Shown: piece after piece, positions 2,220-58,459 of the stretch
Position numbering within the stretch: the first letter of the stretch is position 1
Layout: each line of letters opens with the position of its first letter
NCBI RefSeq assembly: GCF_026210795.1
Contig: NC_089438.1
Span: 3,245,501-3,309,500, forward strand
From: Rhizophagus irregularis
Lineage: Eukaryota > Glomeromycota > Glomeromycetes > Glomerales > Glomeraceae
Reading direction: 5' to 3'
Length of the DNA stretch: 64,000 bases
The notes under the pieces: generated by a model
The model's input: only the letters and a program-made list of their open reading frames with translations
Databases searched by the model: none
What the model was told of the DNA's origin: nothing
Made by a program: the position numbers and the translations under genes

Positions 2220-2224
2220 CATTT

Positions 2225-2510
2225 AAAAGAATTAATAAAGTATCTTACGTAGATGAGCTTTTTCAATTGTGACCCACCGTCATCTTTTAGTGCTTGGTCC
2301 TATTGATGATGATCTTTTCCATTGGCAAGCGTCAATTATAGATCCCGTAAGTAATATTTTACCACTTTTAAACTTCATGTGTAGAGATTATAATAACTTT
2401 CGCTTGAATATTATGGTATAGTTTGGATTAGAGTGATACTTCATACTCTGGAAGTATATTTTATCTTGATATTCATCTTCCTAGTGTCATCATTCAAACC
2501 AACAAGGGTA
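2225..2510 (+). pseudogene. N-terminal half of the same Ubc4/5-like E2, inverted relative to the C-terminal half
   Basis: The plus strand encodes KRINK, then ELFQL, DPPSSFSA and GPIDDDLFHWQASIIDP (2 shifts). An intron starts GTAAGT at 2347, and the next exon reads DTSYSGSIFYLDIHLPS then SFKPTR to about 2508. This is the E2 N-terminal half (KRINKEL, DPPSSCSAGP, GDDLFHWQATIMGP, DSPYSGGVFFLSIHFP, FKPPK). It stops exactly where the minus-strand half begins (VxFTTRIYH). A simple inversion of about 2221-2510 would explain the arrangement. A weak match to the next exon may persist to about 2740. Confidence 0.87.
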
Positions 2511-3442
2511 TACAGTATGATTCGCGCTCTAAATTTGTTATACTGTATATACAGTCATTTTGTATTAGAAATAAGTGATAAGATGTGAGAAAATTGTCTT
2601 TTTAAAGCTTTTTTAGCACGTAAATGTTTTACCATGAGCTATGATATTACGGAACTTAATTATCAACTTTCCTTTGCAGTTAACACGCAGAACTACTTCA
2701 TCGTTATATTGTTTATGAATTCATTAATTCTCCCACTACTATTTCTTATTCTTAAACTTTTTTTGAAGAACTTATAAATTGAGGCTCTTTAAATAGTTAT
2801 TTCTTATGGTCAATCTTGTTTTTGATAATCCTATTTTATTAATCTTATTGTTATTTTTAATTTTTTTTTATATTATTATTTCATTATTTCTTGTTACTTT
2901 CATTATCATTTTGTTATTTCTTATTATTTTTTTGTTATTTCTTAATTATTTTTTTGTTATTGATTTATTCTTTATTTTCTTATTTTTTTCGGTTGTTAGC
3001 TATTATATAATTTAAAACGAAAATTGAATATATATATATATATATATTTTACGGAGAGGGCTGAGTTTTTTTTTTGTAATTATCATCTATTTTCAAGATA
3101 ATAAACTTTCTTACATTAAATTTTTTGCTAATATTGATTATATTGATCATGCGATCATGCATATTTGTATTCCTAAGCAGGCCAAGGTTTGACTCTCCGC
3201 TGTATTTAAGGCAAAAAATGATGATTGTAGACTGGAAATTTACTACGTGACGCAGCAGTTTTTTGTCATTGTAGACTTATATCACGTGATAAGAAAATAA
3301 GATAAAACCTAACAAAAAAAGCCACTAACACTCTAAAAAAACCACTACACTCTCCTAACAAAAAAACTCTAAATAATGTGGTTTCCGAGTTTTAAACTCT
3401 CCTAACAAAAATAAAGATTCCATACGAACAACAAAGGCTTTT
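2511..3442. other. Intergenic, T-rich low complexity
   Basis: The stretch 2750-3010 is a run of TTATT-type sequence. Its open frame encodes only Phe/Leu/Ile and I do not regard it as a gene. A short TA repeat lies near 3030-3046. A repeated CTCTCCTAACAAAAA motif occurs at about 3349 and about 3399. Nothing else is recognised. Confidence 0.6.
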
Positions 3443-3859
3443 ATGGATAATAACGTTGCCTTCAACCTAACGAGAGAAAATAATAGAGTGGGTTTGCATA
3501 CAAATATTTTTTTGAGTGGAAGAGATGATCACCTTAGCGCTCTTGAAGAAGTTAAACTGTCTACTGGAATTTTTAAAGAGGTGGGTAAAGAGTATTCTAT
3601 CACCCACTGGCCATAATCCTTGACTGCATACCGCGAAAGCAACGTGCGAAGGTTTATGAGGGCTGACCGAACGGCTTTAAAGGGTTGCAAACAGATGACT
3701 AGGGCCCATCATACGAGAACCCACCCCAAGGTTATATCTTTGAAAGTGGAGCCTTGGTTAAGGTACCTGAATATAAGTCATCAGGTTCAAATTCACCGTC
3801 TTGAAGATATAGTAGTTGGTCTACCAAGCGCTCTGGAGCCACTCTTGCAAAGGATCTGA
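3443..3859 (+). other. GC-richer block with two short open frames, unidentified
   Basis: A 57-codon frame at 3443-3616 (MDNNVAFNLTRENNRVG...) and a 79-codon frame at 3620-3859 (MTAYRESNVRRFMRADRT...) lie in a stretch with distinctly higher GC than its surroundings. The minus strand across 3740-3860 also has an acidic, coding-looking stretch (VDQLLYLQDGEFEPDDLY). Base composition suggests a decayed transposon or captured gene. I cannot name a family or decide the coding strand. Confidence 0.3.
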
Positions 3860-4075
3860 TCGTCATAATAGAGAATATAGATGGTGGTGAAGGATACCAT
3901 AATATATATAGTCACTCCTGAAGTGTATGCTTATCCCTAAGGTAGTTGGGTTATGGTGTACAACCACTTGTCAAAATGGTTACTGTTTACAATACCATTT
4001 TGGTATTCACTATTATGGCCTGAAGTTAATGAGCTAGAACTAATATAAGCTTCCAATATTAATTTATAGGGACGA

Positions 4076-4264
4076 ATGCAACAAATAGAATTCCACTTCA
4101 AGAAATTAATCGGTTTAATGACTAATGATGATGATATAATTTCTCTTAGGGAACATTTCATCTTTCAAAAAATGTGTTCTAAAATCACAGAACAAGAATT
4201 TTTTATTGGTCAGTTATGTGTACAGTCTTTTAAATTTTATAAATTGCCAATGAATCTTCATTAG
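4076..4264 (+). CDS. Hypothetical 62-residue open frame
   Basis: The frame reads MQQIEFHFKKLIGLMTNDDDIISLREHF... and ends at 4264. Composition is balanced rather than low-complexity, which is the only argument for it. No motif, signal peptide or membrane segment is visible. It may be the last exon of a decayed gene linked to the GC-richer block just upstream. Confidence 0.2.
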   Translation: MQQIEFHFKKLIGLMTNDDDIISLREHFIFQKMCSKITEQEFFIGQLCVQSFKFYKLPMNLH

Positions 4265-4570
4265 TACCAAAAGCTTAAATTCAATTGTTATGGTAACGGT
4301 TTTTTTGTCATTAATCGGAATGAATTGACCGTCCCTTCCCAGTCTCATGTTTAGACTTAACATTGTAGAGTTGTAGTCAAAGATATGTTATGCGAAATAT
4401 TGCGACGCTGATAGGAATTATTAATTCACGTGATTACAGTTTACCTTATTTTTTAAAAAAAAAAAATTATATGTTATAGCGCAGACGAATAGCCGTCGTC
4501 ATTTCAGGGGAACGTTTCAGTGACGTTTCACAGACCGAAAATAAATAAGTTGAATTTCTTTTGCGCCATA

Positions 4571-4890
4571 GCTATGTTAAAATTTACAATTGAAGAGCAG
4601 AGCAACATGAGGAAATGTGAAATTTTGATGTTAATAATTACTTTTAGCCGCGATCATTTGTAAAATTGCGTTATTAATGAGGGCGAAGTAAAGACGTACA
4701 AGAGTATTTTTGACACATTTTCTGCATTGTGCTATGTTAAAATTTACAATTGGAGAGCAGCCACTTTAAGTTAATAATGAGAAAATTCGAGATTTTGATG
4801 TTAATATAAATTATTTTCAGCCGCAATTATCTGTAAAATTATTTTTTTTTATTAACGTATGAGAGTATTTTGCCACGTTTTTTTACATTG
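4571..4890. repeat. Two direct repeats of 160 bp
   Basis: The segment starting GCTATGTTAAAATTTACAAT at 4571 recurs at 4731, exactly 160 bp later. Shared internal landmarks are GATTTTGATGTTAATA, TTTTnAGCCGC, TTTGTAAAATT and GAGTATTTT. Divergence is moderate, with small indels and a poly-T expansion in the second copy. No coding content. Confidence 0.75.
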
Positions 4891-5510
4891 AGCCACAATC
4901 GGAACGATCAGTGCAATAGATGAGATCTATCTTTTTTTTTTATAAAAAAAAAAGAATAAATAAATAAAAATATATAGTATTAATACAGTAGTCATAGTTT
5001 ACAAATATTAGACAAGGAATTGTATACAGTACATAAATAATACATTTGCTTTATAATCGGCGTAAAAATTTAACATTTTATTATATAAAAATAATAATTA
5101 TGTATTTAATTTTAACAAACCAGGAATTGTGAACGTTACTATAAAATTTAACCCATTGTAAGATGATTTGAAATCATATGTATATAAATGTTCATTCTTA
5201 ACGAATAATATGAATTACTATAACTGAAAGTTTAAAATTAAGATTTGTTGAAAGAATTTATTCACAGTCATTAGCTTTAAAATTAAAATATCAAATATGT
5301 ACTAAAGATCAACAACGCTTTGACAAATATTATTTATGATTTGGTTTACTTTTTCTAACTTGTAAAAAAAAAAATTGGGTTATTTATATATTTTATTATT
5401 GCTAAATAATAAAAATTTTTCATAATTGTTTAAAATCAATCAAAATAGTAATAATATGGATAAATTTATTTTATTATATGTTAAAATATAAATAAACGAA
5501 TAAATTATTT
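4891..5510. other. Intergenic, nothing recognised
   Basis: AT-rich sequence with short A and T runs. No coding-like frame, terminal inverted repeat or RNA gene was seen. Confidence 0.5.
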
Positions 5511-5577
5511 AAATTACAAACTAAGAATCTTGAAAGATGTCATATCTTACTACTCTAATCTTAGTGTTTAAATAATT
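5511..5577 (-). promoter_or_regulatory. Conserved 3' stem-loop element of the kinase family (copy 1)
   Basis: Plus-strand landmarks are AAATTACAAACTAAGAATCTT and, after a variable loop, TACTCTAATCTTAGTGTTTA. ACTAAGA (5520-5526) pairs with TCTTAGT (5559-5565). It lies about 150 nt past the stop codon of kinase gene 1. Copies follow the other minus-strand kinase genes at similar distances, so it is probably a 3'-UTR or 3'-end-processing element. Confidence 0.65.
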
Positions 5578-5723
5578 TACAATAAGGAAAACTTCAATAG
5601 TAATAGTTGCTTGTAAAATACATCGTATCTAAATAACTAAATACATTAAATATATTATTTTAAAAAAAAATCTGTTAATAACTTAAAAAGTTAAATAATA
5701 ACATTTCAACATTGATATAAAGA

Positions 5724-7922
5724 TTAATCCTTATTGTCATCAAGAATTTCCAATTCATCCTGTTCTTCTGAATGAAGATTAGGATTGTTGTGCACTTCAT
5801 TCTCATCTATATTAAAATAAAATTAGAATTAAAAAAAAAGTTGTGATTACAAATAATTATTTTGCATACCAATATCAATATTCCTTCTTTGTTGTTGCAT
5901 TATTTCTTCTCTATAATAATTATTTTGAACATCTAAAGAATTTAAATAATAAATTTAATGATATTGATATGCAATTTGTGATAATTAAATTAGTTACTTT
6001 AATTAAGTTACTTACTAGATTTTGAGTTTATCTGTAATTCATTAAATACTTCGGGTAAAATTTTACTATTATCTAGACAACAATTTATTATTAATATAAT
6101 TATTCTTGTTGAAAATAAAATAAATTTGTAATTACCTTTGTTAATTAAAGTATCATTATCTCTTTGATTAACTGATTTACCAAAATCATCAACTAAAAAA
6201 ACATCAAATCAATTAGTTAAATACGCAAATTAGTATTAATTAAATAATACTTACTGTTATCAGGAATGCGGAAGTCATAAGATTTACTATAAAATGCTAA
6301 AAGTTCAAAAATAATTAAATATATATTAATTATGTATAAATAAGAAAAGTTAAAATAATTTATCACCTTCTAGTTCTTCTATTATTTTAGTTAAAAATAA
6401 TATAATTAATACACACATTAATACTCTTTAAATAATTAACTAAAAAGTAAATAACTAGTAGATTATTACCTTCTGTTGCATTTCTTGGTTCAGGAAGATT
6501 TTCAAATCGATGAAGCTTACTTGTACTACTTGTATAATTTTCTAAGCTGCTTACATTATTTATTTCTAAATTATTATCTTCTTCCAATTGTGTTAATAAT
6601 TCATATGACTTAGTTTGATAATATAGATTAAGCTTATCTATTTCATCTGAAAGTGTATAAATATCAGGTCGCTTTGATGAATCAGCATCCCAACATTGTT
6701 TCATTAAATTTTTATATTCTAAAGGAGTTCCTGATACAATTTTTGGTCTTATACCATTAACAATATTCATAGCGAGATCATAATTATGTTCATAATTAAT
6801 AAATGGTGGTTGTCCAGAAGAAATTTCCCACATAAGCATTGCAATACTATAAATATCAGATTTAAAAGTCTGTTCTTTTCCAATAATAACCTCAGGTGCT
6901 ATATAAGGAAGATTTCCATATATACTTTTTAATGGTTTATCGGCAGGTCCACAAAATCCAAGATCACTAATACAAAATATATTATTAGTCATCATAAATA
7001 ATATATTACCAGAATGCAAATCCCTATGAATTGCATTCTCATCATGAACTCTTAAAAGTGCTAGAATTATATTAGAAGCAATTCGAATTTTTTTTTTCCA
7101 TGTAAGTCGATTATGATTTTGTTGTAAATATTTTCTTAAATCTATATTCATTTTATTCATCACAAGCATATAACTTCCATTTGATGGATCTAGTGTTAAA
7201 CCAAAACACTGTACAATTTCTCCCCTTTTATTACTTATAGTTAAATGTGATTTGGCCTACAAAAAGATGCATTAAAATTTTTGATAAAAAGTTTGGTTAT
7301 TAATTTTTTAAAATATTTTTAGACTACAAACCTCTTCAAACCAATTTTGATTTGCATTTTCAACATTTTCTAATCTTTTAAGCACTACATTCTGCTCTCC
7401 AAATCTTTTTATTTGCTGTTCTTTAGAATCCCATTCATCATAACTTCCATTAATCCATTGTGCTGTATAAATCTCCGAGCAACCACCTTTTGTTAGATAT
7501 TCAATATTGTTTAAATTATTATATGGAATCCATTCTGGTATTAGACTTGGGGTTACTGCCTTCATTTGACATTCTTGTATTAAATTATCAATACTATCAT
7601 TTCCGGATGTCCAATTTGAAAATTTTGCTTTTAAACAATTCCGAACACAATGCTCACAAAACACTGTGGCTAAACATTCTTGGTTACAATTTTCACAAAT
7701 TCTTTTTGTTCCTTCATTATTGGTAAGTTTATCCATATCATAATAATTAGTTAAAATTTTTATTGCTTCAGATTTTTCATTTTCTGTAAGTGAATCATCA
7801 ACAAGAATTGTCTGTTTTTTAAATTCATATTCTTTGTGTATATTATTGTAAATACTATAATCTATTAAAGAATATGCTCTGTCAATTGCTGCATTAACGA
7901 ATTCTTCACGAATATCAGACAT
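5724..7922 (-). CDS. Tyrosine-kinase-like protein kinase, gene 1 (8 exons, 563 residues)
   Basis: Exons: 7922-7332, 7256-6470, 6378-6367, 6296-6255, 6192-6136, 6072-6016, 5932-5870, 5806-5724. All junctions are GT-AG and the frame closes at 1692 nt. Residues 76-96 hold six cysteines (CxxC...CxxC pattern, possibly metal-binding). An SGNDSIDNLIQ motif and EWIPYNNLNNIEYL lead into the kinase. Glycine loop TKGGCSEIYTA is at 144-154, the VVLK lysine at 182, IHRDLHSGN at 273-281, DLG in place of DFG at 295-297, and APE at 317-319. The kinase is probably an active cytosolic Ser/Thr or dual-specificity enzyme; its substrate is unknown. The C-terminal tail comes from small phase-1 exons, including one of 12 nt, and is acidic and Asn-rich. 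Paralogues: 21020-23268, 51239-53430, 40033-41133. Confidence 0.88.
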
Positions 7923-10670
7923 GCTTAAATTTTATTAAGTAAAACAAAGAAAAAAAAAAATCAGGACGAAGTTGGTGTCATAACGTCATAATTCGTGACT
8001 TATCAAGTTAGTTGTATAACCTAATGACCGTTACACACTGTAAATAAAAAAATGTACTACCCGAGTCTGTGATACTGAATTACATAATAGTATACGTAAC
8101 ATTCGTAACAATCGTAACATATTTCATTTTAGTGAATGAGAAAGAAAAAGGTAGAAATCTCATTGTAATAGCTATGATGAAATTCTGGTTAAATAATAAA
8201 TCAGTGTAGTACCATTTACAAATTTATACGTACGATAGTCAAATTAGTGAAATTACCGTACTAGCATGACTATCATACTATGTGACACAATAAATATCAT
8301 ACAATAAGAGCACTCACAATAAATAATAATGTATCGCGAAAAAATATTTATTGTAACGTATATCTATAAATAAATCAATTTAAAGTAAAAATGAGCAAGA
8401 TAATGAATCTTTCAAATTTGGTGGAATTTGATATGAGTGAGATCCTGTAAATAAAGTAGGTAAGACTAAGCGATTTAATTCAATAAATTAATTTCCTTTA
8501 ATGTTTCTTAAAGTGGTATATAAAAAAAGAAGTCTTTAAAATTGCTTTAAAATAATATTGTGTGTTACTACTATAAATTTATATAAAAATTACATAAATA
8601 AAATTTTTAAAGATATTACAAATTTACAAAAATAAATTTCATTAATCCTTTAATTTGTAGAAGTATCATTTTAACTGGACTATATATACATTCTCAATCG
8701 TACTACATAACTTCCAATTATCAATGTATCTAAGCATCTCAGCATCACATGCCAACATCATATCGGCAACTATAATATAATAACTCCATTAGACAATTTC
8801 AAACTCTCAAAATGTGTGTTTTTCATCTACATTAATTTCTTTATCAAAGTTTAAGAAAAAATATTGTGTTATAACTAAATTTAAAAGATTGAATCATAAA
8901 ATCGTTCAATGTGATTTCGTTATATCGCATTGTCGTTCATCAAGATTCTGATTACATAATATATTTTCTTTATTTGTGACATCAATAACATTACAATTTA
9001 TTAATGATCAACATTATTTATTTTACTATTAATAGACAATAAATATGATTCGCAAGATTAGTAAACATGGTATTTTAATATTAAAAAGAAAATTTCAATA
9101 TTCTCAATATTCTCAATAGTCCTTTTTTGGGTATCGATTGATTCTCTTATTAAAAAATGTTAAAAAAGGAAAAAGGTTTTTTTTAAAACAAAACAGTTGA
9201 AAGGTTATTCATCCTGTTTAACGTGCATAAAAAATCTAATACTGTAAAGATGAATTTTTTATGCGCAGTATATATTCAATAAATAGTGTATTGATAGTTT
9301 CATCGTATTTTATAAACTATAGACTTCATTTTTTAGAAGGTAAAGACAATAAAATAGTTTATTAAATTATCTCATTTTTCGATATACTAATGATATATTA
9401 TAAAATTCCGTCTTGATCAAAACTGTCAAGTACATAATTATATTTTAAATTTCGATTTTTAATTTTTAAATAATTTTAAAACAAGTTATAATATAATTTT
9501 CACGCAACATTTATTTCAAAAAGGATTTCAAAAAAAAAAAAATTGACTAGAAGTTTGACGTAGGTTTTGTACCTTTATATCGAAGAAAAAGGGATGATAT
9601 GAATGGATTATCCAATAACTACCAGATGATTCTAGAAAAATATAATAACCTATTTTTATCATAGAAACAGAACGTATATTTATAATTACATTCTTGAGTC
9701 AAGAAAAAATAATTAGAATATCATATATAAATGGTAGAGCTTCAGTTTCCACAGTCAATTTAAAATGTAACTTAATTATGATAACTGATAACGCTTTTTA
9801 TTATTATATGTTATTATGTGAATTTTTTTAAAAAAGAATATTTTTATCCATAGTAACTATTAAAATCAACCAGTAAATTTAATGCGAAAAAAAGGAAAGT
9901 CAATATATTATATTTTCATTTTCAATTGTTAATCTATAAATAATTAAATTTTAGTTATTATATCATTATCATATTGTGAGGCTAATTTTATTTAATGAAG
10001 GAATAATGTCTCACTTAAATATTGTATATTAATAATTGACTCAGTAGCCTTTTTCTTTTTTAAAGCGACTTAGATGATCGACTTTGTGCACAGGGGTTTG
10101 TTAATACATTTCCCATGTGAATCATGTTTCAAAAATAAATTTCAAAGAATAATGTTTAGACTCGCGTTGATTTCCTTAATAGGCGTTACCCCTTTCGGTA
10201 ATTAGTAACATCACTTTCAAATTTTAAAATTATATGAGTATGCATTATATGATTATATATTTTCTTAAATTCTTTATCGCACACAAAAGCTCTCGTTTAA
10301 TTAATTTCACCTGTGATCGTCTAAAAATTAATAAGATGTGTACTATTGTAACATTTTTCCAACGCTATCAGTAAAGTTTTTTTAAACTCTTTAACGGGTT
10401 CACTATTCATTTTTTTTTTTTACTGAGGAATTATACATTGAAAAATGGTACGGTGAAAGAGTTTTTGCGTTGCCGAATTTTCCGTGATCAACATAAAAAT
10501 AGAGGAATGATTTTCGGGGATCATGATAGAATGACGTTCCATTTTTAGAAATCAAACAATGACAGGGGAAGAGATCCCAAATTAAGTATAATTTATAGCC
10601 TTTTTCTTACAACAAAACAGAGATCACGCTAGGTAATCTAAACGTGACTGTGATACAAGTTTTTTAATTA
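7923..10670. other. Long intergenic region, no gene recognised
   Basis: AT-rich sequence with scattered stops in all frames. One clear hairpin lies at 9224-9265: GCATAAAAAAT pairs with ATTTTTTATGC around an 18-nt loop. A minus-strand stretch near 8660-8800 has a faint coding look but no usable motif. Poly-A and poly-T runs occur near 9530 and 10410. Confidence 0.5.
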
Positions 10671-36057: not shown

Positions 36058-39000
36058 TCAAGTAGATATTCTAATTTCATTCTTGTAACCTCCTTTAGGC
36101 AATTTAATATAATACAATTCAAATGCTTTTCTCAAATTTTTATCCGTTCCGATACCATTTTTATAACAAAATGCCAAATTATATTGTGCATCAAAACTCC
36201 CTCCTTCAACAGACTTCAAATACCATTTAAATGCTTTCTTATTATCTATATCTATTCCAATTCCATGTTGGTAACAATAACCTAAATTATTTTGTCCTTT
36301 AATGTTTCCTCCTTCAGCAGATTTTAGATACGATTCAAATGCTTTCTTTTTATCAATATTTATTCCTACTCCATGTTGATAACAATAACCTACCTTATTT
36401 TGTGCATCATGATTTTTTTCAGCAGATATTAAATACCATTCAAATGCTTTCTCTTTGTCCATTTTTACTCCAATTCCATGTTGGTAACAATAACCAACCT
36501 TATTTTGTGCATCATTATTCCCTGCTAAAGCTGATTTATAATACCAATCAAATGCTAACTCGTAATTTTTATCAATTCCTTTGCCAAAATAATAAAAATC
36601 GCCTATTTTATTTTGTGCATCATGATTCTCTCCTAAAGCTGATTCAAAATACCAAAAATATGCTTCCTCATAATCTATCTCGATTCCTTTACCATAATAA
36701 TAGCAATCACCTATTTTACTTTTTGCATTATGATTTCCTCTTTCAGCAGATTCTAAATACCATTGGAATGCTTCCTCATCATCAATATTTACTCCAATCC
36801 CATGTTGATAGCAATAACCTAAATTACTTTGCCCTATCAAATTTCCACCAAAGGCCGATTTATAATACCAATCAAATGCTAAGCTGTAATCTTTATCAAC
36901 TCCTTTACCAAAATAATACCTATTACCGATTTCATTTTGTGCATTATGATTTCCTCCTTTGGCAGATTTTAAATACCACTCAAATGCTTTTTCTTGATCA
37001 ATATTTACTCCAATTCCATAATGATAACAATAACCTAAATTATTTTGTGCACTATGATTTCCTCTTTCAGCAGATTTAAGATACCAAGAAAAGGCTATAT
37101 TATAATTTTTATCAACCCATTTACCAGAATAATAACATTTACCCATTATATTTTGTGCATCAATATTTCCTCCTTTAGCAGATTTAGAATACCATTCAAA
37201 TGCTTTCTTTTCATTAATACATACTCCAATTCCATGTTGATAGCAGTAACCTAAATTATTTTGCGCATAATGATTTCCTCCTCTGGCAGATTTAGTATAC
37301 CATTTAAATGCTTCCTTTTCATTAACATATGTACCGAATCCATGTTGATAACAGTAGCCTAAATTATTTTGTCCTTTCAAATTTCCTCCCTCAGCCGATT
37401 TCAAATACCATCTACATGCTTCAATGTAACTTTTTATAACTATATCACCCGAAAAATAATAATCACCCACTTTATTTTGTAAAATATGATCTCCTCCTCT
37501 AGCAGATTTCAAATACCATTTAAATGCTTTCATTTCATCTATATCTGTTCCAATTCCATATTGGTAGCAACAACCTAAATTACCTTGTCCTGCAGAATTT
37601 CCTCTTCTAGCCGATTTTAGATACCATTCAAATGCTTTTTTGTTATCTGTTTTTATTCCAATTCCATGCTGATAACAGTAACCTAATGCATTTTGTGCAT
37701 TATGATTTTTGCCTTCAGCTGATATTGAGTACCACTTAAATGCGATACTATAATTTTTATTTGTTCCTAAACCATCCTTAAAACAAAATGCTAAATTATA
37801 TTGTGCATTGTGATTCCCTCCTTTAGCTGATTTTAAATACCATTCAAATGCTTTATTGTAATTTTTATTTGTTCCTAATCCATTTCTATAACAATTACCC
37901 AAATTATTTTGTGCATCATAATTTTCACCTTCAGCTGACTTTAAATACCATTCGAATGCTTTATTATAATTTATATTCGTTTCTAATCCATTTCTATAAC
38001 AATCACCTAAATTATTTTGTGCATTATAATTTCCACCTTCAGCTGATTTTAAATACCACTTAAATGCTAAATTATAATTTTTAATTGTTCCAAATTCATT
38101 CTTATAACAGAATGCTAAATTATTTTGTGCATTATGATTCCCTCTTTTAGCTGATTTTAAATACCATTCATATGCTTTTTTTTCATTCATGTTTACTCCA
38201 ATCCCATATTGATAACAATTACCTAAATTATTTTGTGCATTGTGATTTCCTTTCATAGCAGATTTTAAATAAAATTTAAAACCTTGCCTTTTATCTATAA
38301 ATGTTCCAATTCCATGCTGATAACAATAACCTAAATTATTTTGTCCTTCTAAATTATTTTCAGCGGATTTTAGATAACATTCAAATGCTTTTCTTTTATC
38401 TACATTTATTCCATAACCATATTGATAACAAATTCCTAAATGATTGCAAGCATTATAATTTCCTTTTTTAGCGGACTCTAAATATAAATCAAATGCTTTC
38501 TTTTTATCAATATCTATACCAATCCCATATTGATAACAATAACCTAAATTATCTTGTCCTTCCGAATTTCCTTTTTTAGATGATTTTAAATACCATTCAA
38601 ATGCTTTCTTTCCATCCTTACATATTCCAATTCCATATTGATAACAATAACCAATCTTATTTTGTGCAATGGAATTTTCTTTTTTGGCAGATTTTAAATA
38701 CCATTCAAATGCTTGTTTAATATCAACATTAACTCCTTTACCATTATAATAACAATTTCCTATTTGATATTGAGCAAAAGAACTTTCATTATTTTTAATA
38801 GCCCATTTAAAAGAATTTCTTTTAAATAAAATAATACCTTTATAATAATATAATGATAATAAATATTTTCCAATAATGATATTATAATTTTTTAGATGAT
38901 CATTATTATTTAATATTTTTATATCAATAGATAATAAATATAATTTTAATGCTTTTTCTATATTCTTATTAATATTTACGATACCATGTTGATAAAAAAA

Positions 39001-39363
39001 TCCAATTAAACTTGAAAACCATGATTCACTTTGTTGATGAACTTCCATTGATTCAATAACTTTTTTAAATTTTATATCTTTAAATTCTTCTATATTATTT
39101 ATCCATTCAATTACATTACTTTCAAAATTTTCAACGTCATCAATATCATTTGTATACGTAATCATATGATGAAAATCGGTGACCAACTCTTTAAAGAAAT
39201 TTTCATCATTTTCGTAATCAATTTTTTCTTTTTGTTGTATATCGTCTTCTGTAGTATTGGGCGTATTATATAAAATGTCAAAGAAATTTTCATCATGTTC
39301 ATAATCTGTATTATTTTCTTGTATACCGTCTGTGTTGGATGTATTGTATAAAATGCTAGACAT
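36058..39363 (-). CDS. Large Sel1-repeat protein, 1101 residues, about 26 repeats
   Basis: A single exon. The start is set at 39363 (MSSILYNTSNTDGIQ); an upstream in-frame ATG would add 50 Leu/Phe/Lys-rich residues that look like 5' leader. Residues 1-55 carry two imperfect copies of an ILYNTxNT...YExDENFF motif. The rest, from about residue 120, is about 26 Sel1-like repeats of 36 residues, consensus AQNNLGYCYQHGIGVxxDxxKAFEWYLKSAxxGNx. No kinase, membrane segment or signal peptide is present, so it is probably a cytosolic scaffold. Two unit types, YCYQHGIGV and YYFGKGVDKDY, alternate in the C-terminal half. No lesion seen. Expression cannot be judged from the sequence. Confidence 0.88.
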   Translation of the reverse strand: MSSILYNTSNTDGIQENNTDYEHDENFFDILYNTPNTTEDDIQQKEKIDYENDENFFKELVTDFHHMITYTNDIDDVENFESNVIEWINNIEEFKDIKFKKVIESMEVHQQSESWFSSLIGFFYQHGIVNINKNIEKALKLYLLSIDIKILNNNDHLKNYNIIIGKYLLSLYYYKGIILFKRNSFKWAIKNNESSFAQYQIGNCYYNGKGVNVDIKQAFEWYLKSAKKENSIAQNKIGYCYQYGIGICKDGKKAFEWYLKSSKKGNSEGQDNLGYCYQYGIGIDIDKKKAFDLYLESAKKGNYNACNHLGICYQYGYGINVDKRKAFECYLKSAENNLEGQNNLGYCYQHGIGTFIDKRQGFKFYLKSAMKGNHNAQNNLGNCYQYGIGVNMNEKKAYEWYLKSAKRGNHNAQNNLAFCYKNEFGTIKNYNLAFKWYLKSAEGGNYNAQNNLGDCYRNGLETNINYNKAFEWYLKSAEGENYDAQNNLGNCYRNGLGTNKNYNKAFEWYLKSAKGGNHNAQYNLAFCFKDGLGTNKNYSIAFKWYSISAEGKNHNAQNALGYCYQHGIGIKTDNKKAFEWYLKSARRGNSAGQGNLGCCYQYGIGTDIDEMKAFKWYLKSARGGDHILQNKVGDYYFSGDIVIKSYIEACRWYLKSAEGGNLKGQNNLGYCYQHGFGTYVNEKEAFKWYTKSARGGNHYAQNNLGYCYQHGIGVCINEKKAFEWYSKSAKGGNIDAQNIMGKCYYSGKWVDKNYNIAFSWYLKSAERGNHSAQNNLGYCYHYGIGVNIDQEKAFEWYLKSAKGGNHNAQNEIGNRYYFGKGVDKDYSLAFDWYYKSAFGGNLIGQSNLGYCYQHGIGVNIDDEEAFQWYLESAERGNHNAKSKIGDCYYYGKGIEIDYEEAYFWYFESALGENHDAQNKIGDFYYFGKGIDKNYELAFDWYYKSALAGNNDAQNKVGYCYQHGIGVKMDKEKAFEWYLISAEKNHDAQNKVGYCYQHGVGINIDKKKAFESYLKSAEGGNIKGQNNLGYCYQHGIGIDIDNKKAFKWYLKSVEGGSFDAQYNLAFCYKNGIGTDKNLRKAFELYYIKLPKGGYKNEIRIST

Positions 39364-39950
39364 TATTTTTTTCTTTAAAAAAAAAAATAAATAAATAAAA
39401 AGTTTTAGTAGAAATTTGTCAAGATAAATAAATATAAAAAAAAGATCTACGACAGTAGAAGGCTGTGCGACAGTGAATGGGCCGAGATATGAAAGACTTG
39501 AAAGTATGCACATTTTTGTTTAACGTGACATAAAAAAAATTCGAGGGGATGGTGTAACAAACTATGCTTTTGATGATCCTATTATCCGTAAAAAAAAAGA
39601 AATATTTTTTTTTTGTGACGTAATATTTAATCGGTAATATTTTTTTTAGGAAAAAAATACCCGAATGTGGGAAAGTTTTAATTTCTAAGATTTATAATTA
39701 TAATAAAAGCTTCGTTTTACTTTAACTATATTTATTTTATCATATGTTATTTTTACATTATCAAAATTTTTTTATCGCTTCTTTGAAATTCACAATTGCC
39801 ATAATAGACACTGTCAAAGTTACTGTTAATGATGCTGACTAAAAGTTATAAGAATTCTGTTCCAGAATTATATTTAATATCTAATATTAACATCGTTAAA
39901 AAAAACCGGACTTTTAATTTTTTAATGTTACAGCGATAAGAATAACCCAT
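39364..39950. other. Intergenic, nothing recognised
   Basis: AT-rich 5' region of the Sel1 gene with poly-A and poly-T runs. Confidence 0.45.
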
Positions 39951-42863: not shown

Positions 42864-45800
42864 TTAAATCATAAAATCATCTAATTCTTCACTTTCATTC
42901 ACTTTTATATTAGCTTGTGAATATCTACTTTCAAGAATTTCATTCAATTGTTTACTAGTAAAATCAAGTAAGCGACTTTTATAGTATGCCTGCGAATGAG
43001 ATCCAGTATCAATATTATTGTTATGTCCAATTGGTGCATTTATAAATTCCATAATATTGTATTTTAATTCTTCATTAATATCTTTAACATTATATGGAGA
43101 AGCCATCCATTTATTAATAATGTTTAACACTTCTTCAGAAGATGGCCTTTTTAATGGGGTTTCATCCCAACACTTTTTCATCAATTCTACATAACATTGT
43201 GGAGTATTTTCAATAATTTTAGGTCGTTCACCTTCACAAATACTTAAACTAAGTTGAAAATCATGTTCTATATTATTAAATGGTGGTTTCCCAGATGTAA
43301 ATTCCCACATAATCATAGAAAAACCATACATATCACTAGCTGGAGTATAAGGATTGCCTCTTAAAACTTCAGGTGCCATAAATGGTATTACACCATAAAT
43401 ATTATATTCTTTCAAATATGATTTTACAGGTTTACATAATCCTAAATCACTAATATAAATTCTACCCTCACTATGATTTAAAATATTACCATCATGAAAA
43501 TCGCAATGAATAAGCTCTTTTTTATGTATATTATTAAGTCCAGAAATAATTTCAAATAGCATATATAATTTTTGATTCCAATCACTTTTGCTTATTCTTG
43601 TTAAGTTTCCTCTTAAATTACCTTCATTTGCATAATCCATTACCACCATATATTTCAAAGTATCTGGATCTTTTGTAAACCCATGAAAATAAATAATGTT
43701 ATATGAAATTAAACAACTTTCATGATAATTCCACTATAAAGTAATAATAATAATATATTAATATAAATAAATTATAATTTAAATTAAAAAAAATAAATAA
43801 CATATTATCATACTTCATTTAAAAATTCATTTAAATTTTCATTTAAATTATTATGAAGTTTAAGAATTACTTCATTATCTTTATTATTGTTAAACCAAAT
43901 AGCCTTGTATATAATACCAAATCCCCCTTTATCAAGATATTCAACATTTTTAAGTTTATCATAAGGAATCCATCTTAAGTTTTTTTCAAAAATAAAATTA
44001 TCCATAATTGTATTTCCACTTTTTCCAAATCTAATAAATTTAAATAATTAGTATATTATTAAAGTTTATATTAAAAATTACATTAAAATTTAAAATTGAG
44101 ATTAACACTTACTCTGAAATTTAAATAGAAAATTTAATATAATATATATCTTAGTTTTTGTATATATATATATATAATAATAACCTATATTTCACAACTT
44201 ACCAACTAAAGTAACAAGAAATTTTATATGAAAGGATCCAATTAACAATAAATATTTATAAAGTACATAACAATAGAAATAACAAATAACTTACAAGCTT
44301 ATTTTTAAATAATTTTTAAATAAACAATTTAGTTGGTTTAAATTATATGTAAATATTATATAAATATGTAATAATAGAATTAAATAAACAACTATAACTT
44401 ACGTTCTATTTAAGTAAAGAATTTAGTTAGTTTAAATTATATATAAATATGTAACAATAGAATTAAATAAATAACTTACTCCCTATATTATTAAATAATT
44501 TTTTAAATAAAGAATTTAGTTAATGCAAATATTATAATAATAAGTAATGATAGAATTAAATAAATAACTTACAAGCTATATTATATAAATAATTTTTCAA
44601 ATAAAGAATTTAGTTAGTTTAAATTATATGCAAATATTATATAAATAAGTAATAATAGAATTAAATAAATAACTTACTCTCTATATTATAAATAATTTTT
44701 AATAAAGTATTTATTTGGTAGTTTAAATTATATGTAGATATTTTAAAATATAATAAAATTAAATAAATAACTTACTTCCTATATCATTAAATATTTTTTT
44801 AAATAAAGAATTTAATTAGTTTAAATTATGTAAATATTATATAAATAAGTAATAAATAACTTATAACTTACGATCTATTAAATAAAGAATTTAGTTAATT
44901 TAAATTATATGCAAATAAGAAATAATAGAATTAAATAAATAACTTGTGACTTACCGACTAAAAGAAATTACAAAATATTTTTAAATAAAGTATTTAGTTA
45001 GTTTAAATTATATGTAAATAAATAATAATAGAATTAAATAAATAACTCATAACTTACCAACTAAAGAAATTAGAAAATAAATAACAAATTTAGTTAGTTT
45101 AGTTTAAATATATGTAAATATTATATAAATAGAATTAAATAGATAACTTATAACTTACTAACTAATTAAAATAACAAAATCATTTTTTAAATAAAGTATT
45201 TATATAGTTAGTTTAAATTATATGTAAATATTATATAAATAAGTAATAATAGAATTAAATAAATGACTTACCATCTGTGAAATATTTTTTAAATAAAGAA
45301 TTTAGTTAGTTTAAATTATATGTAAATAATATATAAATAAGTAATAATAGAATTAAATAAATAACTTACACTCTATATTATAAATAATATTTTAAATGAA
45401 GAATCCAGTTAGTTTAAATTATATGTAAATATTAATATATAAATAAGTAACAATATAATTAAATAAATGACTCACTCCCTAATTTTTTAAATAAAGAATT
45501 TAGTTAGTCAAATTATATGTAAGGCTGTTGCAACTTAATTGTTTGTTTAACGTCCAGGCCTTTTGAAAAAATTAAGGGGGGAGGGGGGCTTAAGTTAAAC
45601 AAACTAAATAAATAAACATAGGAAAATTTGAAAATTTCAGAAGGGATTATTTATCATTATATGTTTATTAGCTTTTAAATTTTTTCAAAAATAGAGGGGG
45701 TATTTAATAATATGTGTTTATTAGATCTCAAATTTTTTAAAAAATAGAGGGGGGTGGTGGACGTTAAACAAATAATCAAGTTGGAACGGCCTAAATATTA

Positions 45801-48314
45801 TATATACAAATAAGTAATTATAGAATTAAATAAATAACTTACTCCCTATATTATTAAATAATTTTTTAAATAAGAATTTAGTTAATTTGAACTATATGCA
45901 AATATATATAAATAAGTAATAATATAATTAAATAAATAATAACTTACAATCTATTTAAAAAATTTAGTTAATTTAAATTATATGTAAATATTATATAATA
46001 AGTAATAATAGAATTAAATAAACAACTATAACTTACGTTCTATTTAAGTGAAGAATTTAGTTAGTCTAAATTATATATAAATAAGTAATAATAGAATTAA
46101 ATAAATAACTTATGATAACTTACGATCTATTTAAGTAAAGAATTAAGTTAGTTTAAATTATATGTAAAATATTATATAAATAAGTAATAATAAAATTAAA
46201 TAAATAACTTACACTCTATATTATCAAATAATTTTTCAAATTAAAGAATTTAGTTAGTTTAAATTAAAATACCATATAAATGAGTAATAATAGAATTCAA
46301 TAATTAACTTATAACTTACTATCTATTTAAATAAAGAATTTAGTTAGTTTAATTTATATTTAAATATTCTATAAATAAGTAATATTAGAATTAAATAAAT
46401 AACTATAACTTACGTTCTATTTAAATAAAGAATTTAGTTAGTTTAAATTATTTGTAAAGATTATATAAATAATTAATGATAGAATTAAATAAATAACTTA
46501 TAACTTACGATCTATTTAATAAAGAATTTAGTTAGTTTAAATTATTATATGTAAATATTAAGTAAATAAGTAATGATGGAAATAAATAAATAATAACTTA
46601 CAAACTATTTAAATAATGAATTTAGTTAGTTTAAATTATTTGTAAAGATTATATAAATAAGTAATAAATAGAATTAAATAAATAACTTACATGCTATATT
46701 ATTAAATAATTTTTAAATAAAGAATTTAGTTAGTGTAAATATTATATAAATAAGTAATAATAGAATTAAATAAATAACTTATAACTTACCAACTAAAAGA
46801 AATTAAAAAATAATTTTTTGAATAAAGAATTTAGTAATTTAAATTAATACATTTAAATATTATATAAATAAGTAATAATAGAATTAAATATACAACTATA
46901 ACTTACGTTCTATTTAAATAAAGAATTTAGTTAATTTAAATTATATGTAATATTATATAAATAAGTAATAACAGAATTAAATAAATAACTTACTTCCTAT
47001 ATTATTATATAATTTTTAAATAAAGAATTTAGTTAAACTATATGTAAATATTATATAAATAAGTAATAATAGTATTAAATAAATAACTTACTTCCTATAT
47101 TATTAAATAATTTTTTAAATAAAGAATATAGTTAGTTTAAATTATATATGTAAATAAGTAATAATAGAATTAAATAAATAACTTGTAACTTACCAACTAA
47201 AAGAAATTACAAAATAATTTTTTAGATAAAGAATTTAGTTAGTTTAAATATATTTAGATATTATATAAATAAGTAACAATAGGATCAAATAAACAACTAT
47301 AACTTACGATCTATTTAAATAAAGAATTTAGTTAGTTTAAATTATATTATGTAAATTAGTAATAACAGAATTAAATAAATAACTTACTGTCTATATTATT
47401 AAATATTTTTTTAAATAAAGAATTTAGTTAGTTTAAATTATATAAAAATATTATATAAATAGGTAATAATAGAATTTAAATAAATAACTTACCCTCTATA
47501 TTATTAAATAATTTTTTAAATAAAGAATTTAGTTAGCTTTAAATTATATAAATAATAGAAATATAACTTACTCCCTAATATTATTTATAATTAATTATTA
47601 TTAGTTAAATATAAATATAATACAAAAGTATTTACTGTAAATTAAATATATCACTTACAATCTAGTCATTTAAATAAGAATACAATTAGTTGAATTATAT
47701 AGAATATTAAACAAATAAATATGTTATTGTAACTTACCATCTGTAATACAATTAATTATTAAATAGTTAATTAAATAAAGAATTTAGTTATTTGAATATT
47801 AGTATGTAAAAATAAATAAAATAAAGTAAAGAATTAAAGATTTAAATAACTAATAACTTACTGACTATAGTATTATATTAATCATTAAATAAATTATTTA
47901 ATTACATGAAATGTAAAAAAAATGATAAGTAATTCCATTATTATTCAATTGTAAGATAACTTATTAACTTACGAGCTAAATTATCTAACATTATTTTTGT
48001 ATAATATAGTTAGATTGAATTATATTTGAATATTAGGTAATTATAGATAGTATTTAAATGTATTTACAAATAAAAATTTAATATTTTAGCATGTTTAACA
48101 TACCTTTAGATTCCTTGATACTACTTTCTTCAAATTCTTCAGAGTCGCTTCCTTTGATTTTTTCAGAGTTACTTCCTTCAAATTCTTCAGTGCTGCTTCC
48201 TTTCAAATTCAATATTACCAGAATATAGAATTAAACAAATTTATAATATTTCTAATTGTATTAAATGTTTATACTATACATATAATCATTACCTTTATGA
48301 TTACTGAGAGCCAT
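42864..48314 (-). CDS. Microexon-array protein kinase (predicted 42 exons, 438 residues)
   Basis: Predicted exons: 48314-48293 (MALSNHK), 48199-48104, 37 exons of 3 nt, one of 1 nt at 44113, then 44030-43814 and 43733-42864. Total is 1317 nt and the frame closes. Exon 2 encodes four 8-residue Ser/Glu-rich units (GSSTEEFE type). The array adds 38 residues. The 44030 exon then gives FGKSGNTIMDNFIFEKNLRW, the family's SGN...WIPY lead-in, so an in-frame upstream N-terminus is expected. Kinase: DKGGFGIIYKA loop, VILK lysine near residue 134, HCD in place of HRD at about 225-227 (non-RD type), DLG for DFG at about 245-247, APE at about 269-271. The kinase exons are confident. Microexon inclusion is inferred from splice signals and frame. 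A conservative alternative starts at ATG 44005. Confidence 0.75.
44031..48103 (-). repeat. Tandem intron-like array with 37 3-nt candidate microexons and one of 1 nt
   Basis: Minus-strand pattern: AG, NNN, GTAAGT. Triplets (first + coordinate): CTC 47973, TCA 47862, ATG 47738, ATT 47659, GGA 47572, AGG 47493, ACA 47388, ATC 47308, TTG 47194, GAA 47092, GAA 46994, AAC 46907, TTG 46790, CAT 46691, TTT 46602, ATC 46509, AAC 46414, ATA 46320, AGT 46213, ATC 46124, AAC 46037, ATT 45948, GGA 45843, GGA 45476, AGT 45370, ATG 45272, TTA 45159, TTG 45058, TCG 44955, ATC 44872, GAA 44776, AGA 44678, CTT 44573, GGA 44480, AAC 44403, CTT 44295, TTG 44203; then A at 44113. Introns are 74-128 nt, except 364 nt where a MITE sits. 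Typical intron: GTAAGTTATTTATTTAATTC near the 5' end, AAACTAACTAAATTC about 20-40 nt before the acceptor, and TATAG or AATAG at the end. One donor is GTGAGT (after 45476). Confidence 0.85.
45523..45791. mobile_element. Harbinger/Tourist-like MITE inserted in an array intron
   Basis: Ends are GGCTGTTGCAACTTAATT... and the reverse complement of GGCCGTTCCAACTTGATT..., about 33 bp long through TTTGTTTAACGTCC. TAA flanks both sides (45520-45522 and 45792-45794). Removing the element and one TAA restores the array's usual TATATGTAAATATTATA exactly. Internal G-runs (GGGGGGAGGGGGG) stand out in the AT-rich array. It lengthens the host intron to 364 nt without touching splice sites or branch motif. 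Confidence 0.9.
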
Positions 48315-54757: not shown

Positions 54758-55070
54758 TTAGGTCACATAATGTTTACAACGTTTTGGGTAATGGTTGAAA
54801 GATAACTTGTAATCGATACAAAGATCTGCAACTCCAACAAATAAAGATCTTCGATCGGCAAAATCATTTCATGAATCATGATAAAAATGGAAATTTTAAC
54901 AAAGGGAAACCTGTATTGACTGCGTTCGAAACTTTAAAAACATATTCATGTGAGAATTAATGAATTATTTAATAAAGATGGATCTTCAAAAAAAAAATTC
55001 TTGGTTTGCATTTTTCTTTGTATTGATAGTCAAACGAAAGTATTTTCATCTAGTTATTATTATATCCAAA

Positions 55071-55946
55071 ATGAATACTGTTTATGTATTAGAGTGCAAT
55101 AATAACAAATATTACATCGGAAAAACTAGCAGAAGTGTTAATATTAGGTTTAAAGAACATCGCAATGGTTCTGGTTCAGAATGGACACGCCAATATCGTC
55201 CAATAAGAATTGTTGAGTCTGAAAAAACTGTTAATTTACATTTAGAACTGAATAAAACCCTTGATTATATGAACGAATATGGCATCGATAATGTAAGAGG
55301 TAGTTGTTATTCTAGTGTGAATTTATCAAAGACAGAAAAACAGAGCATTCGTCAATTACTTTCTTCTAGAAATGATTCTTGTTACAACTATGGTATGACT
55401 GGTCATTTCACTAAATATTGTGGTTATTCTTACAACAAAAATAACCACAATTCTTATGGGAGTTTTAAACGTGGCAGTCTCATTCATTTTGCTAATGAGT
55501 GTGATAATTATTTTGATGAAAATGACGTTGAAAATAATGAGACTAATAGTTATTATGGTGAAAGTGATGATAATTCTTATATATGTTTTAAATGTGGCAG
55601 TTCTAGTCATTATGCTAATAATTGTGGCGATTCTGATGAAAATGATGGTGAAAATGATGAGAATGATAGTGAAAATGATGATGATAATCCTTATAGATGT
55701 TTTAGGTGTGGCAGTCCGAGTCATTTTGATAATTATCGTAATGATTATTCTAATGAAAATGACTCTTATGATGAGAATGGTGGTGAAGGTGATGATGGTA
55801 ATTCTTATAGAAGTGAAAGTGATGATTGTAATTCTTATAGATGTTTTAAATGTGGCAATTCAAATCATTTTGCTAATGATTGTGATGATGAGTCTGATAT
55901 AGAGACGCGGTTGGAACTCGATCACATTGGGATGAGTTATAACTAG
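55071..55946 (+). CDS. GIY-YIG domain / zinc-knuckle protein, copy 1 (291 residues)
   Basis: Start chosen at 55071 (MNTVYVLECNNNKYYIGKT) because both paralogues start there; the frame is open upstream to 54960. Residues 1-100 are a GIY-YIG-like module: TVYVLEC in the GIY strand, YYIGKT for YIG, RFKEH carrying the conserved Arg, then GSEWTRQYRPI and NKTLDYM. CX2CX4HX4C knuckles follow, separated by Asp/Glu/Asn-rich linkers. Of five, two are intact (CFKCGSSSHYANNC, CFKCGNSNHFANDC). The first has Tyr for the second Cys, the second has lost both N-terminal Cys, and the fourth has Arg for the last Cys. A nuclease or nucleic-acid-binding role is likely; the target is unknown. Confidence 0.85.
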   Translation: MNTVYVLECNNNKYYIGKTSRSVNIRFKEHRNGSGSEWTRQYRPIRIVESEKTVNLHLELNKTLDYMNEYGIDNVRGSCYSSVNLSKTEKQSIRQLLSSRNDSCYNYGMTGHFTKYCGYSYNKNNHNSYGSFKRGSLIHFANECDNYFDENDVENNETNSYYGESDDNSYICFKCGSSSHYANNCGDSDENDGENDENDSENDDDNPYRCFRCGSPSHFDNYRNDYSNENDSYDENGGEGDDGNSYRSESDDCNSYRCFKCGNSNHFANDCDDESDIETRLELDHIGMSYN

Positions 55947-57793: not shown

Positions 57794-58459
57794 ATGGATA
57801 CTGTTTATGTCTTGGAGTGCAGCAATAATAAGTATTACGTCGGAAAAACTAGAAGAAACGTTAATACTAGGTTTGAAGAACATCGTAATGGAACTGGTTC
57901 AGAATGGACACGTCTATATCGGCCAATAAGAATTGTTGAGTCTGAAAGAAGCAATAATTCTCATTTAGAGCTGAATAAAACCCTCGATTATATGAGCAGA
58001 TATGGTATTGATGATGTAAGAGGCAGTTGTTATTCTAATGTGAATTTATCAGAAACAGAAAAACAGAATATTCGTCAATTACTTTCTTCTAGGAATGATA
58101 CTTGTTACAACTGTGGTAGGACTGGTCATTTCGCTAATAACTGTAATTTTTCTAACGAGAATGCTAATAATAATAATTCTCATGGATGTTTTAAGTGTGG
58201 CAGTACCGATCATTTTGCTTATGATTGTAATAATTACTTTGATGAAAGTGATAGCTCTTGTGATGAGAATGATGATAATAAGTTTTATAGATGTTTTAGA
58301 TGTGGCAGTCCAAGTCATTTTGCTAATAATTGTTATAAAGAGTCTGATAGTTCTAATGATGAGGATAATAGCTATTATGATGATAATGAACGCCTTAGTT
58401 ATGTTGTATGTTACAGGTGTGGCCATACTGGTCATTATGCTAATAGATGTAATAACTAA
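57794..58459 (+). CDS. GIY-YIG domain / zinc-knuckle protein, copy 2 (221 residues)
   Basis: Starts MDTVYVLECSNNKYYVGKT. The GIY-YIG-like module spans about 1-100 (VYVLEC, YYVGKT, RFEEH, GSEWTRLYRPI, NKTLDYM, VRGSCY). Four CCHC knuckles follow and all are intact: CYNCGRTGHFANNC, CFKCGSTDHFAYDC, CFRCGSPSHFANNC, CYRCGHTGHYANRC. Linkers are acidic (DESDSSCDENDDN). The fusion suggests single-stranded nucleic-acid binding joined to a nuclease-like fold. The catalytic Glu was not pinned down, so activity is uncertain. It is the best preserved complete copy of the three. Confidence 0.88.
   Translation: MDTVYVLECSNNKYYVGKTRRNVNTRFEEHRNGTGSEWTRLYRPIRIVESERSNNSHLELNKTLDYMSRYGIDDVRGSCYSNVNLSETEKQNIRQLLSSRNDTCYNCGRTGHFANNCNFSNENANNNNSHGCFKCGSTDHFAYDCNNYFDESDSSCDENDDNKFYRCFRCGSPSHFANNCYKESDSSNDEDNSYYDDNERLSYVVCYRCGHTGHYANRCNN

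Follow-up and report, generated by a model that had tools for sequence, protein, structure and literature searches.

Neighbour-only avoidance of stop codons points to arrays of single-codon exons in kinase genes of Rhizophagus irregularis

Tandem exon duplication and exon shuffling are established routes by which recombination within introns multiplies coding cassettes without loss of frame, the cassettes being domains or tens of residues. Here, we describe a kinase gene on the minus strand of a 64,000-nucleotide (nt) stretch of the Rhizophagus irregularis genome (the whole stretch is hereafter called the window), which contains an array of candidate 3-nt exons and in which, unlike in those two processes, the cassette is one codon. 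The DNA of this gene and its relatives displays 3-nt spacing, splice-site conservation, a consistent phase, purging of stop codons between neighbouring units only, linkage within cassettes, duplication and conserved ends. We favour, at a probability of roughly 0.92, the reading that the array would be a real coding stretch whose exons, one codon each, follow one another directly, are joined in their genomic order with all units normally retained, and are translated in phase 1.

Among described systems, the micro-exon genes (MEGs) of Schistosoma mansoni contain, according to the accessible sections of PMC10526429, 10-20 short exons per gene of 6-81 bp (3-81 in the abstract), mostly 15 bp and mostly multiples of three, separated by introns of 0.1-5 kb; the proteins are secreted, and isoforms arise mainly through alternative splicing of the central exons. 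The likeness lies in many consecutive, very short exons in multiples of three that are hard to annotate and encode variable proteins. As far as those sections describe MEGs, three differences stand out: the array exons here are 3 nt long plus one of 1 nt, with up to 72 strict units counted per fetched gene; the introns are ~100 nt rather than 0.1-5 kb; and inclusion looks constitutive in genes that, among those examined, are mainly kinases. Identity with MEGs was thus rejected on exon size, intron size and predicted product.

Isolated tiny exons are also on record. For the 1-nt exon of Arabidopsis APC11, intron definition with stepwise removal of the flanking introns was judged more plausible, and the smallest exon characterised before it was 3 nt (Guo and Liu, PMC4674806, in the sections available). 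Fusarium CYP621A likewise contains a single-nucleotide exon, according to the available text of PMC12940212. Both genes are evidence that spliceosomes can join a 1-nt exon, as would be needed here, but, as those texts present them, each has one isolated tiny exon and no array. The abstract on Trichoderma Xlr2 calls functional microexons previously undescribed in filamentous fungi (PMC11121469); that microexon, also from a filamentous fungus, is described there as single and regulated. A long-read gene-model paper on R. irregularis discusses exon-intron refinement and leaves microexons unmentioned in its accessible part (PMC10234402). Our literature search, conducted mostly outside subscription journals, turned up, among the papers listed, neither tandem 3-nt exon arrays nor any microexon of an arbuscular mycorrhizal fungus. 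Dozens of consecutive single-codon exons match no known kind that we found and could represent a categorically new one, although a strict reader could regard them as an extreme microexon variant.

Coordinates below are window positions, a slash marks a junction, and L001-L036 label genomic stretches fetched for comparison; the genome searched is a 146,748,485-base assembly of 32 contigs, in which the window is C10:3245501-3309500. The initial annotation, made from the sequence of the window, had listed 37 consecutive candidate exons of 3 nt with 19 kinds of triplets, and our recount gives the same numbers: 37 AG-NNN-GTRAGT units on the minus strand, from 47975 to 44203 (36 GTAAGT, one GTGAGT), with 19 different triplets. 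An AG lies exactly 3 nt upstream of 37 of the 38 GTRAGT donors in this stretch; the 38th donor is AG-A-GTAAGT at 44113, a one-nucleotide candidate exon. The introns between units span 74-121 nt in 35 of 36 cases, the remaining one being 364 nt long with an insertion, and the branch motifs said to occur in most units are indeed present (CTAAC in 21 of 36 introns, CTRAY in 25 of 36). The features of the gene are as follows.

48293-48314, minus strand: exon 1, ATGGCTCTCAGTAATCATAAAG (MALSNHK plus 1 nt); all 13 aligned copies, the window's and 12 others, show a recognisable ATGG...AAAG/GTAA.
48104-48199, minus strand: exon 2, acidic and serine-rich 24-nt repeats, with a conserved phase-1 end, AAAG/GTATGT.
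44203-47975, minus strand: array of 37 candidate three-nucleotide exons, AG-NNN-GTRAGT, identified by pattern and by the phase-1 stop test.
47659-47975, minus strand: conserved 5' units CTC, TCA, ATG and ATT (47975, 47864, 47740, 47661), predicted to code A-L-N-D and found, with variants, in paralogues.
45479-45842, minus strand: intron of 364 nt, flanked by two GGA units and containing an inserted repeat; the adjoining units are intact.
44203-44297, minus strand: conserved last units CTT (44297) and TTG (44205); CTT then TTG or TTA in 17 of 18 arrays.
44113-44113, minus strand: candidate one-nucleotide exon A (CAG-A-GTAAGT), which sets the kinase exon in frame; the frame breaks without it.
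43814-44030, minus strand: first kinase exon (FGKSGNTIMDNF...), on which most genome protein matches fall.
42864-43733, minus strand: second kinase exon up to the stop codon, assigned by PF07714 together with the first exon and by the open joined coding sequence.

By eye, the insert in the 45479-45842 intron is a repeat with inverted ends GTTCCAACTTGATTATTTGTTTAACGTCC ... GGACGTTAAACAAACAATTAAGTTGCAAC, probably a small transposon inside one array intron.

Joined, these parts amount to 22+96+37x3+1+217+870 = 1,317 nt and remain open across 438 codons, with a translation containing ...SKALNDWKDNLG...RKTWKPFEFGKSGNTI... The annotated reading of the joined triplets in phase 1 into the kinase therefore holds, and so does the predicted 112 nt between exon 2 and the kinase exon (37x3+1), of which the single base at 44113 is needed for the kinase frame. 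The predicted product begins MALSNHKGSSTEEFEGS, without a signal peptide apparent by eye, and continues downstream into a kinase domain, for which both exons together match PF07714 (PK_Tyr_Ser-Thr) at 144.7 bits (cut-off 23.1, E = 4.1e-42). Exons 1 and 2 jointly end in phase 1. Dropping the single A, or the whole array including it, shifts the kinase frame into a stop ~20 codons on, while dropping the 3-nt exons only keeps it, as had been cautioned; we saw no selection for such skipping.

To place the window gene in its family, a DNA search with the kinase start returned at least 42 matches (the best 40 of 333 candidates were scored), and a protein search with the joined peptide and kinase exon at least 151 (150 of 2,933 candidates scored), mostly to the first kinase exon. 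Seventeen paralogues, mainly the most similar, were picked from the 40 places of the DNA search and fetched with 6.5-9.5 kb. All 17 contain an array at the same location, with 10 to 72 strict units each, and five smaller pieces (L018-L022) likewise carry 3-nt units and the one-nucleotide exon.

The decisive evidence comes from the order of the triplets. In phase 1, a codon consists of the last base of one triplet and the first two of the next, and because these bases lie ~100 nt apart in the DNA, only joining should link them. Junctions were counted where neighbours are 60-135 nt apart (60-140 for L034-L036), after removal of the first pattern hits of L006 and L012, which lie 1.0 and 2.9 kb before the array. 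Across the 18 arrays, none of 633 junctions forms a phase-1 stop, compared with 23.2 ± 3.8 in within-array shuffles (n = 2,000, lowest 10), whereas phase-2 stops at the same 633 junctions are not depleted (87 vs 78.5 expected). Phase-1 stops between units two, three, four, five and six apart occur at chance level (24, 21, 17, 17 and 18 of 583, 535, 494, 458 and 424 pairs; 21.5, 20.2, 18.6, 17.3 and 16.3 expected). The variable middle of the arrays, with the first six and last two units dropped, also shows 0 stops at 490 junctions (19.5 expected), and none of its 206 distinct pair types is a stop.

We fetched nine replicate arrays once the hypothesis was fixed, choosing them from pattern listings and some from the list of stops two units apart. 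Here again, phase-1 stops number 0 of 440, compared with 24.8 ± 3.6 (1,000 shuffles, lowest 14), while phase 2 shows 65 stops vs 54.6 expected at 440 junctions; the count two units apart (25 vs 23.6) is biased upward by this selection, which does not help the adjacent count. A first kinase motif scan of the nine replicate stretches found none; a kinase exon comes after the array inside the fetched sequence of L024 and L031, and in L026, L029 and L032 it lies a short way past the end of that sequence. All 27 arrays together show 0 phase-1 stops at 1,073 junctions vs 48.1 expected (TAA 0 vs 21.0, TAG 0 vs 18.1, TGA 0 vs 9.0), with no common sense codon absent, and given such a frame constraint across units we rejected a non-coding minisatellite. 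Genome-wide, T/RA or T/AG was found in 5 of 1,197 adjacent pairs (2 + 3; the reversed control of the T/RA pattern also gave 2), compared with 732 of 2,888 (382 + 350) for the control V/RA or V/AG (Fisher p = 1e-114); two units apart, T.x.RA occurs in 56 of 783.

Two other phases were considered for the kinase arrays. Phase-0 stop triplets are rare (none among 690 triplets of the 18 arrays and a single one, in L026, among 470 of the nine replicates), and the window array alone is stop-free in phase 0, as the initial annotation had cautioned, with 2 stops among 35 counted junctions in phase 2. For the family, this caveat is answered: the rarity of phase-0 stops does not depend on unit order, and phase 0 fits neither exon 2 nor the kinase. 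Phase 2 was rejected since its stops are not depleted in the 18 arrays or the nine replicates. The only explanation we found is that each triplet would be spliced to its neighbours in genomic order, with phase-1 translation of the resulting RNA. Because stops are purged between neighbours and not between farther pairs, inclusion of every unit appears to be what selection sees.

Several observations weigh against this interpretation. First, we infer splicing itself from a pattern of selection in DNA, and the joined array peptide had no Pfam match at E 0.001. Second, the shuffles treat units related by descent as exchangeable; the phase-2 and two-to-six-apart controls share this relatedness, yet show no depletion. 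Some sense codons also depart from the shuffled order (TTT z = +6.0, TGG +4.9, GGG -4.3, GTT -3.7). Third, the five phase-1 stop junctions found genome-wide need accounting for: one (C17:3901252) falls within L033, whose array has introns of a different type, and the remaining four (C4:4281152, C6:381459, C12:957776, C13:347101) may represent defunct copies or arrays read in a different phase. Fourth, four of the nine replicates (L025, L027, L028, L030) consist of an array without a kinase tie. Fifth, 6 of 629 strict donors lack an AG at 3 nt, and the over-long intervals of the first sample (77 intervals, each 140-330 nt long) indicate that some cassettes are decayed or missed, given that 45 contain a 3-nt unit whose donor departs by one base, 9 contain no candidate and 23 contain only weak or odd ones (2 with a perfect donor one base after AG). 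Finally, CTAG/TTT, the likely exon-2 acceptor present in 12 of 12 aligned paralogues, is absent from the window copy, where 48199-48260 (minus strand) has one extra A before GGAAGC. The exon-2 acceptor at 48200 is for this reason less certain; another nearby AG gives an open frame, and a 5' end weakened in the window copy is conceivable. Our argument accordingly concerns the family and not the window copy.

The spacing of the splice signals is nearly invariant. In the first 18 arrays, AG stands exactly 3 nt upstream of 623 of 629 strict donors; as relaxed units, whose donor differs by one base, were looked for at no spacing other than 3 nt and are uninformative on exon length, the spacing claim is based on strict donors. 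The array introns have a median of 97 nt (5-95% range 77-113; 633 introns within the 60-135 nt limit), and CTRAY lies within -55 to -12 in 438 of 633. Array units thus show an AG acceptor, a short exon, a GT donor and a branch-like motif, the sequence features of spliceosomal microexons. Genome-wide, we counted 4,085 adjacent 3-nt pairs (1,197 + 2,888), compared with 54 for the reversed-pattern controls (18 + 36), and 1,355 runs of three consecutive units, compared with 23; requiring the second exon to be 4 nt reduced the matches to 7, equal to the reversed control (7). The ratio of 1,160 units to 665 strict pairs, applied to the 4,085 pairs, gives a rough estimate of ~7,000 one-codon exons genome-wide. 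The array described in the initial annotation is borne out, and it is an instance of a genome-wide architecture rather than a peculiarity of a single gene.

What is inherited as a unit can be read from the flanks of the triplets. GGA, AGA, GAA, GGT and CTT are mostly preceded by ATATAG and followed by GTAAGTTATTT; ATC and many ATT have AAATAG before and GTAAGTTATAAG after; and TTG and TTA mostly have TTTTAG before and GTAAGTTATAAG after. Linkage amounts to 0.497 bits across the triplet (shuffled 0.021) and 0.062 bits between the two ends of one intron (shuffled 0.019, maximum 0.042). This contrast indicates that the inherited cassette is half-intron, codon, half-intron, with exchange inside introns. 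Intron cores are highly similar within and between arrays. The triplets differ far more than the flanking intron bodies, but the pairs compared mostly have intron cores in common rather than being orthologous units, and we read this as intron similarity and not as evidence of selection. Intron lengths fall into every residue class modulo 3 (218/212/203), while the exon remains at 3 nt. That an array can be expanded without losing the frame, as had been proposed, is exemplified by L017, in which a tandem block copy aligns over 1,859 bp at 95.6% identity (BLAST). The proposal of one codon per unit needs amending: one residue is gained per unit, but each residue draws its bases from two neighbouring units. 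Residue entropy is 4.03 bits per residue in phase 1 vs 3.13 in phase 0, so the phase-1 reading spreads few cassette types over the amino-acid alphabet, which is a consequence of phase and no proof of purpose.

Between paralogues, the ends of the arrays are conserved, while the middle varies in length and content. Wherever the array start was found, it reads CTC-TCA-ATG-ATT-GGT-TTG, with variants; L001, L007 and L009 run off the fetched stretch before it, and the first unit of L016 was not found. The array end is CTT-TTG or CTT-TTA in 17 of 18 arrays and CTT-CTG in L017. The one-nucleotide exon after the array was recovered by pattern in 16 of 18 (A 14, T 1, C 1) and by eye in L007 (A) and L001 (G), where the donors are one base off, giving A 15, G 1, T 1 and C 1. 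The start exon is recognisable in 13 of the 18 copies, those whose fetched sequence covers array start and flank, although L014 lacks 9 bases and L015 is divergent. Exon 2 ends in AAAG/GT in 12 of 13 aligned copies and in GAAG/GT in L015, and the donor is GTTATT in L010. The variable segment between the conserved ends, which links a short acidic N-terminus to the kinase, ranges from ~3 residues (L004) to ~75 (L017). The joined peptides of L009 and L017 show stops where the parse misses a unit, outside the counted junctions. Nearly all listed protein matches start at or next to the kinase exon. Retrocopies with joined triplets were rejected for the five candidates examined: L018 and L022, which reach well into the array peptide, and L019-L021, which have long open frames, all possess their own 3-nt units and 1-nt exon. 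The other matches reaching into the array peptide are L016, which has an array, and C10:2815303, with stops.

Similar arrays with other introns lie near other genes. L023 (C1:1723000-1732500, plus strand; units 679-8440) contains 61 strict units whose introns, with TTACCAG acceptors and many GTGAGT donors, are unrelated to those of the kinase arrays. Its phase 2 has 0 stops at 63 junctions (1.5 expected), compared with 3 in phase 0 and 5 in phase 1, and reads as a proline-rich stretch (PPTPPPPPLPGRLP...) that continues in frame, via a 26-nt exon identified by eye, into a coiled coil with a DUF7491 match below its cut-off. L023 is a separate gene type sharing the one-codon-exon architecture. 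A third intron type (TTTTATAG-NNN-GTAAGTTTAT) occurs in L034 (C7:1812500-1819500, plus strand) and L035 (C31:985500-991000, minus strand), with 27 and 34 strict units downstream of same-strand kinase exons; array and kinase may here form one gene, in which case the arrays are probably C-terminal. In L036 (C3:1574500-1579500, plus strand), 27 strict units precede an open frame of 541 residues that has no Pfam match at E 0.01. L033 (C17:3899500-3904000, plus strand) contains 17 strict units, their introns resembling those of L023, followed by a kinase whose lead-in is rich in cysteine (NWTSGN). Its composition predicts no phase-2 stops, so that count does not discriminate between phases; phase-1 stops are absent from 18, 30 and 22 junctions of L034, L035 and L036, where only 0.2, 2.2 and 1.2 are expected, which makes the test weak there. 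Given the arrays of L023 and L033-L036, the architecture would belong to more than one gene type, whether by spread or by separate origin.

Each unit would thus act as a cassette that runs from the 3' half of one intron through three coding bases into the 5' half of the following one. The introns (~75-115 nt, GTAAGT...CTAAC...AG) would be removed successively by pairing across each intron, and with every step the upstream exon would lengthen by three bases, so that a tiny exon would never be bridged by two complexes simultaneously. Sequential intron definition may be the simplest solution for the splicing order. Because every exon is 3 nt and the intron cores are similar, unequal recombination inside introns could add, delete, swap or duplicate cassettes without a frame shift, and selection would then purge the junctions that form stop codons. 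The predicted product would carry a hypervariable segment of ~11 to >80 residues between a short conserved N-terminal peptide and the kinase domain. Conservation of the ends but not of the middle is suggestive of a changing linker or binding segment, and the variable peptide would most likely serve as a fast-evolving binding or sensing linker of the kinase. Occasional low-level exon skipping would cost little and may occur; units two to six apart bear no trace of selected skipping.

The main rival concerns function, and it is a serious contender that we place somewhat short of even odds. It holds that the arrays are spliced and translated but inert, the outcome of a constructive-neutral ratchet in which tandem duplication rich in introns keeps adding residues, a neutral load tolerated by a disordered linker. 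In its favour, among codons of notable expectation only stops are missing altogether, paralogues differ in strict array length (10 to 72 units), and the array peptide has no known domain. It accounts less well for the conserved first and last residues and for the sense codons that depart from shuffled order; the presence of arrays with different introns near other genes hints at something beyond drift in a single gene, and splicing dozens of introns per transcript should be costly. A more ambitious extension of the preferred reading, which we put forward only tentatively, is that the arrays act as a general diversity generator: ~7,000 one-codon exons, probably in more than 100 genes of several families, with similar introns serving as recombination spacers. 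Since out-of-phase reading ties each residue to two neighbours, few cassette types would yield nearly all amino acids, and a recognition segment could be rewritten codon by codon, for example in partner, host or self/non-self discrimination by kinases.

Unlikely in our judgement is combinatorial splicing, by which the 3-nt exons would be alternative cassettes, variably skipped to give many kinase isoforms per gene. Skipping any number of them keeps the kinase frame, and donors vary between units, some being one base off GTAAGT; if such skipping were common and selected, however, stops between units two or more apart should also have been purged, and they are not (24 of 583 vs 21.5 expected; T.x.RA in 56 of 783 genome-wide). 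Less probable still is an introner, that is, a mobile intron element inserted at 3-nt intervals into a once continuous coding sequence. The hallmark of introners is a target-site duplication at each intron, and a 3-nt duplication would leave equal triplets on both intron sides. The high similarity of intron cores within and between arrays is what an introner would produce, but equal neighbouring triplets (for a duplication length of 3 nt) occur in only 2 of 36 window pairs, and the linkage pattern, high over the triplet but low from one end of the intron to the other, is the reverse of what an intron moving as a unit would leave. A neutral, unspliced satellite of duplicated introns, with 3-nt spacing inherited from one founder and the kinase translated from an ATG at ~44005, against which the initial annotation had warned, is scarcely credible: the units are clearly related by duplication, the introns are AT-rich and variable, and tandem-repeat software calls overlapping arrays here, but the idea is contradicted by zero phase-1 stops between neighbours in 27 arrays alongside chance levels two to six units apart, by exons kept at 3 nt while intron lengths fill all residues modulo 3, and by the conservation of the upstream exons, the last units and the one-nucleotide exon.

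Elsewhere in the window, two related open frames on the plus strand (54960-55946 and 57794-58459) have what we take to be GIY-YIG-type N-termini followed by CCHC zinc-knuckle repeats, and a 1,151-residue open frame on the minus strand (36058-39513) consists of ~36-residue repeats that presumably resemble Sel1 repeats.

Overall, 3-nt exons are known as rare single cases (PMC4674806, in the sections available), whereas here dozens would stand in a row per gene. The arrays make it testable how a spliceosome handles successive exons below its own footprint, whether intron definition alone suffices, and with what fidelity dozens of consecutive splicing steps proceed. The stop-codon adjacency test itself needs no RNA and is applicable to any genome. 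For R. irregularis and possibly its relatives, current gene models likely miss parts of many signalling genes, because the usual aligners would not place 3-nt exons. Codon-sized cassettes recombining in introns would, in addition, amount to an unrecognised route of protein evolution.

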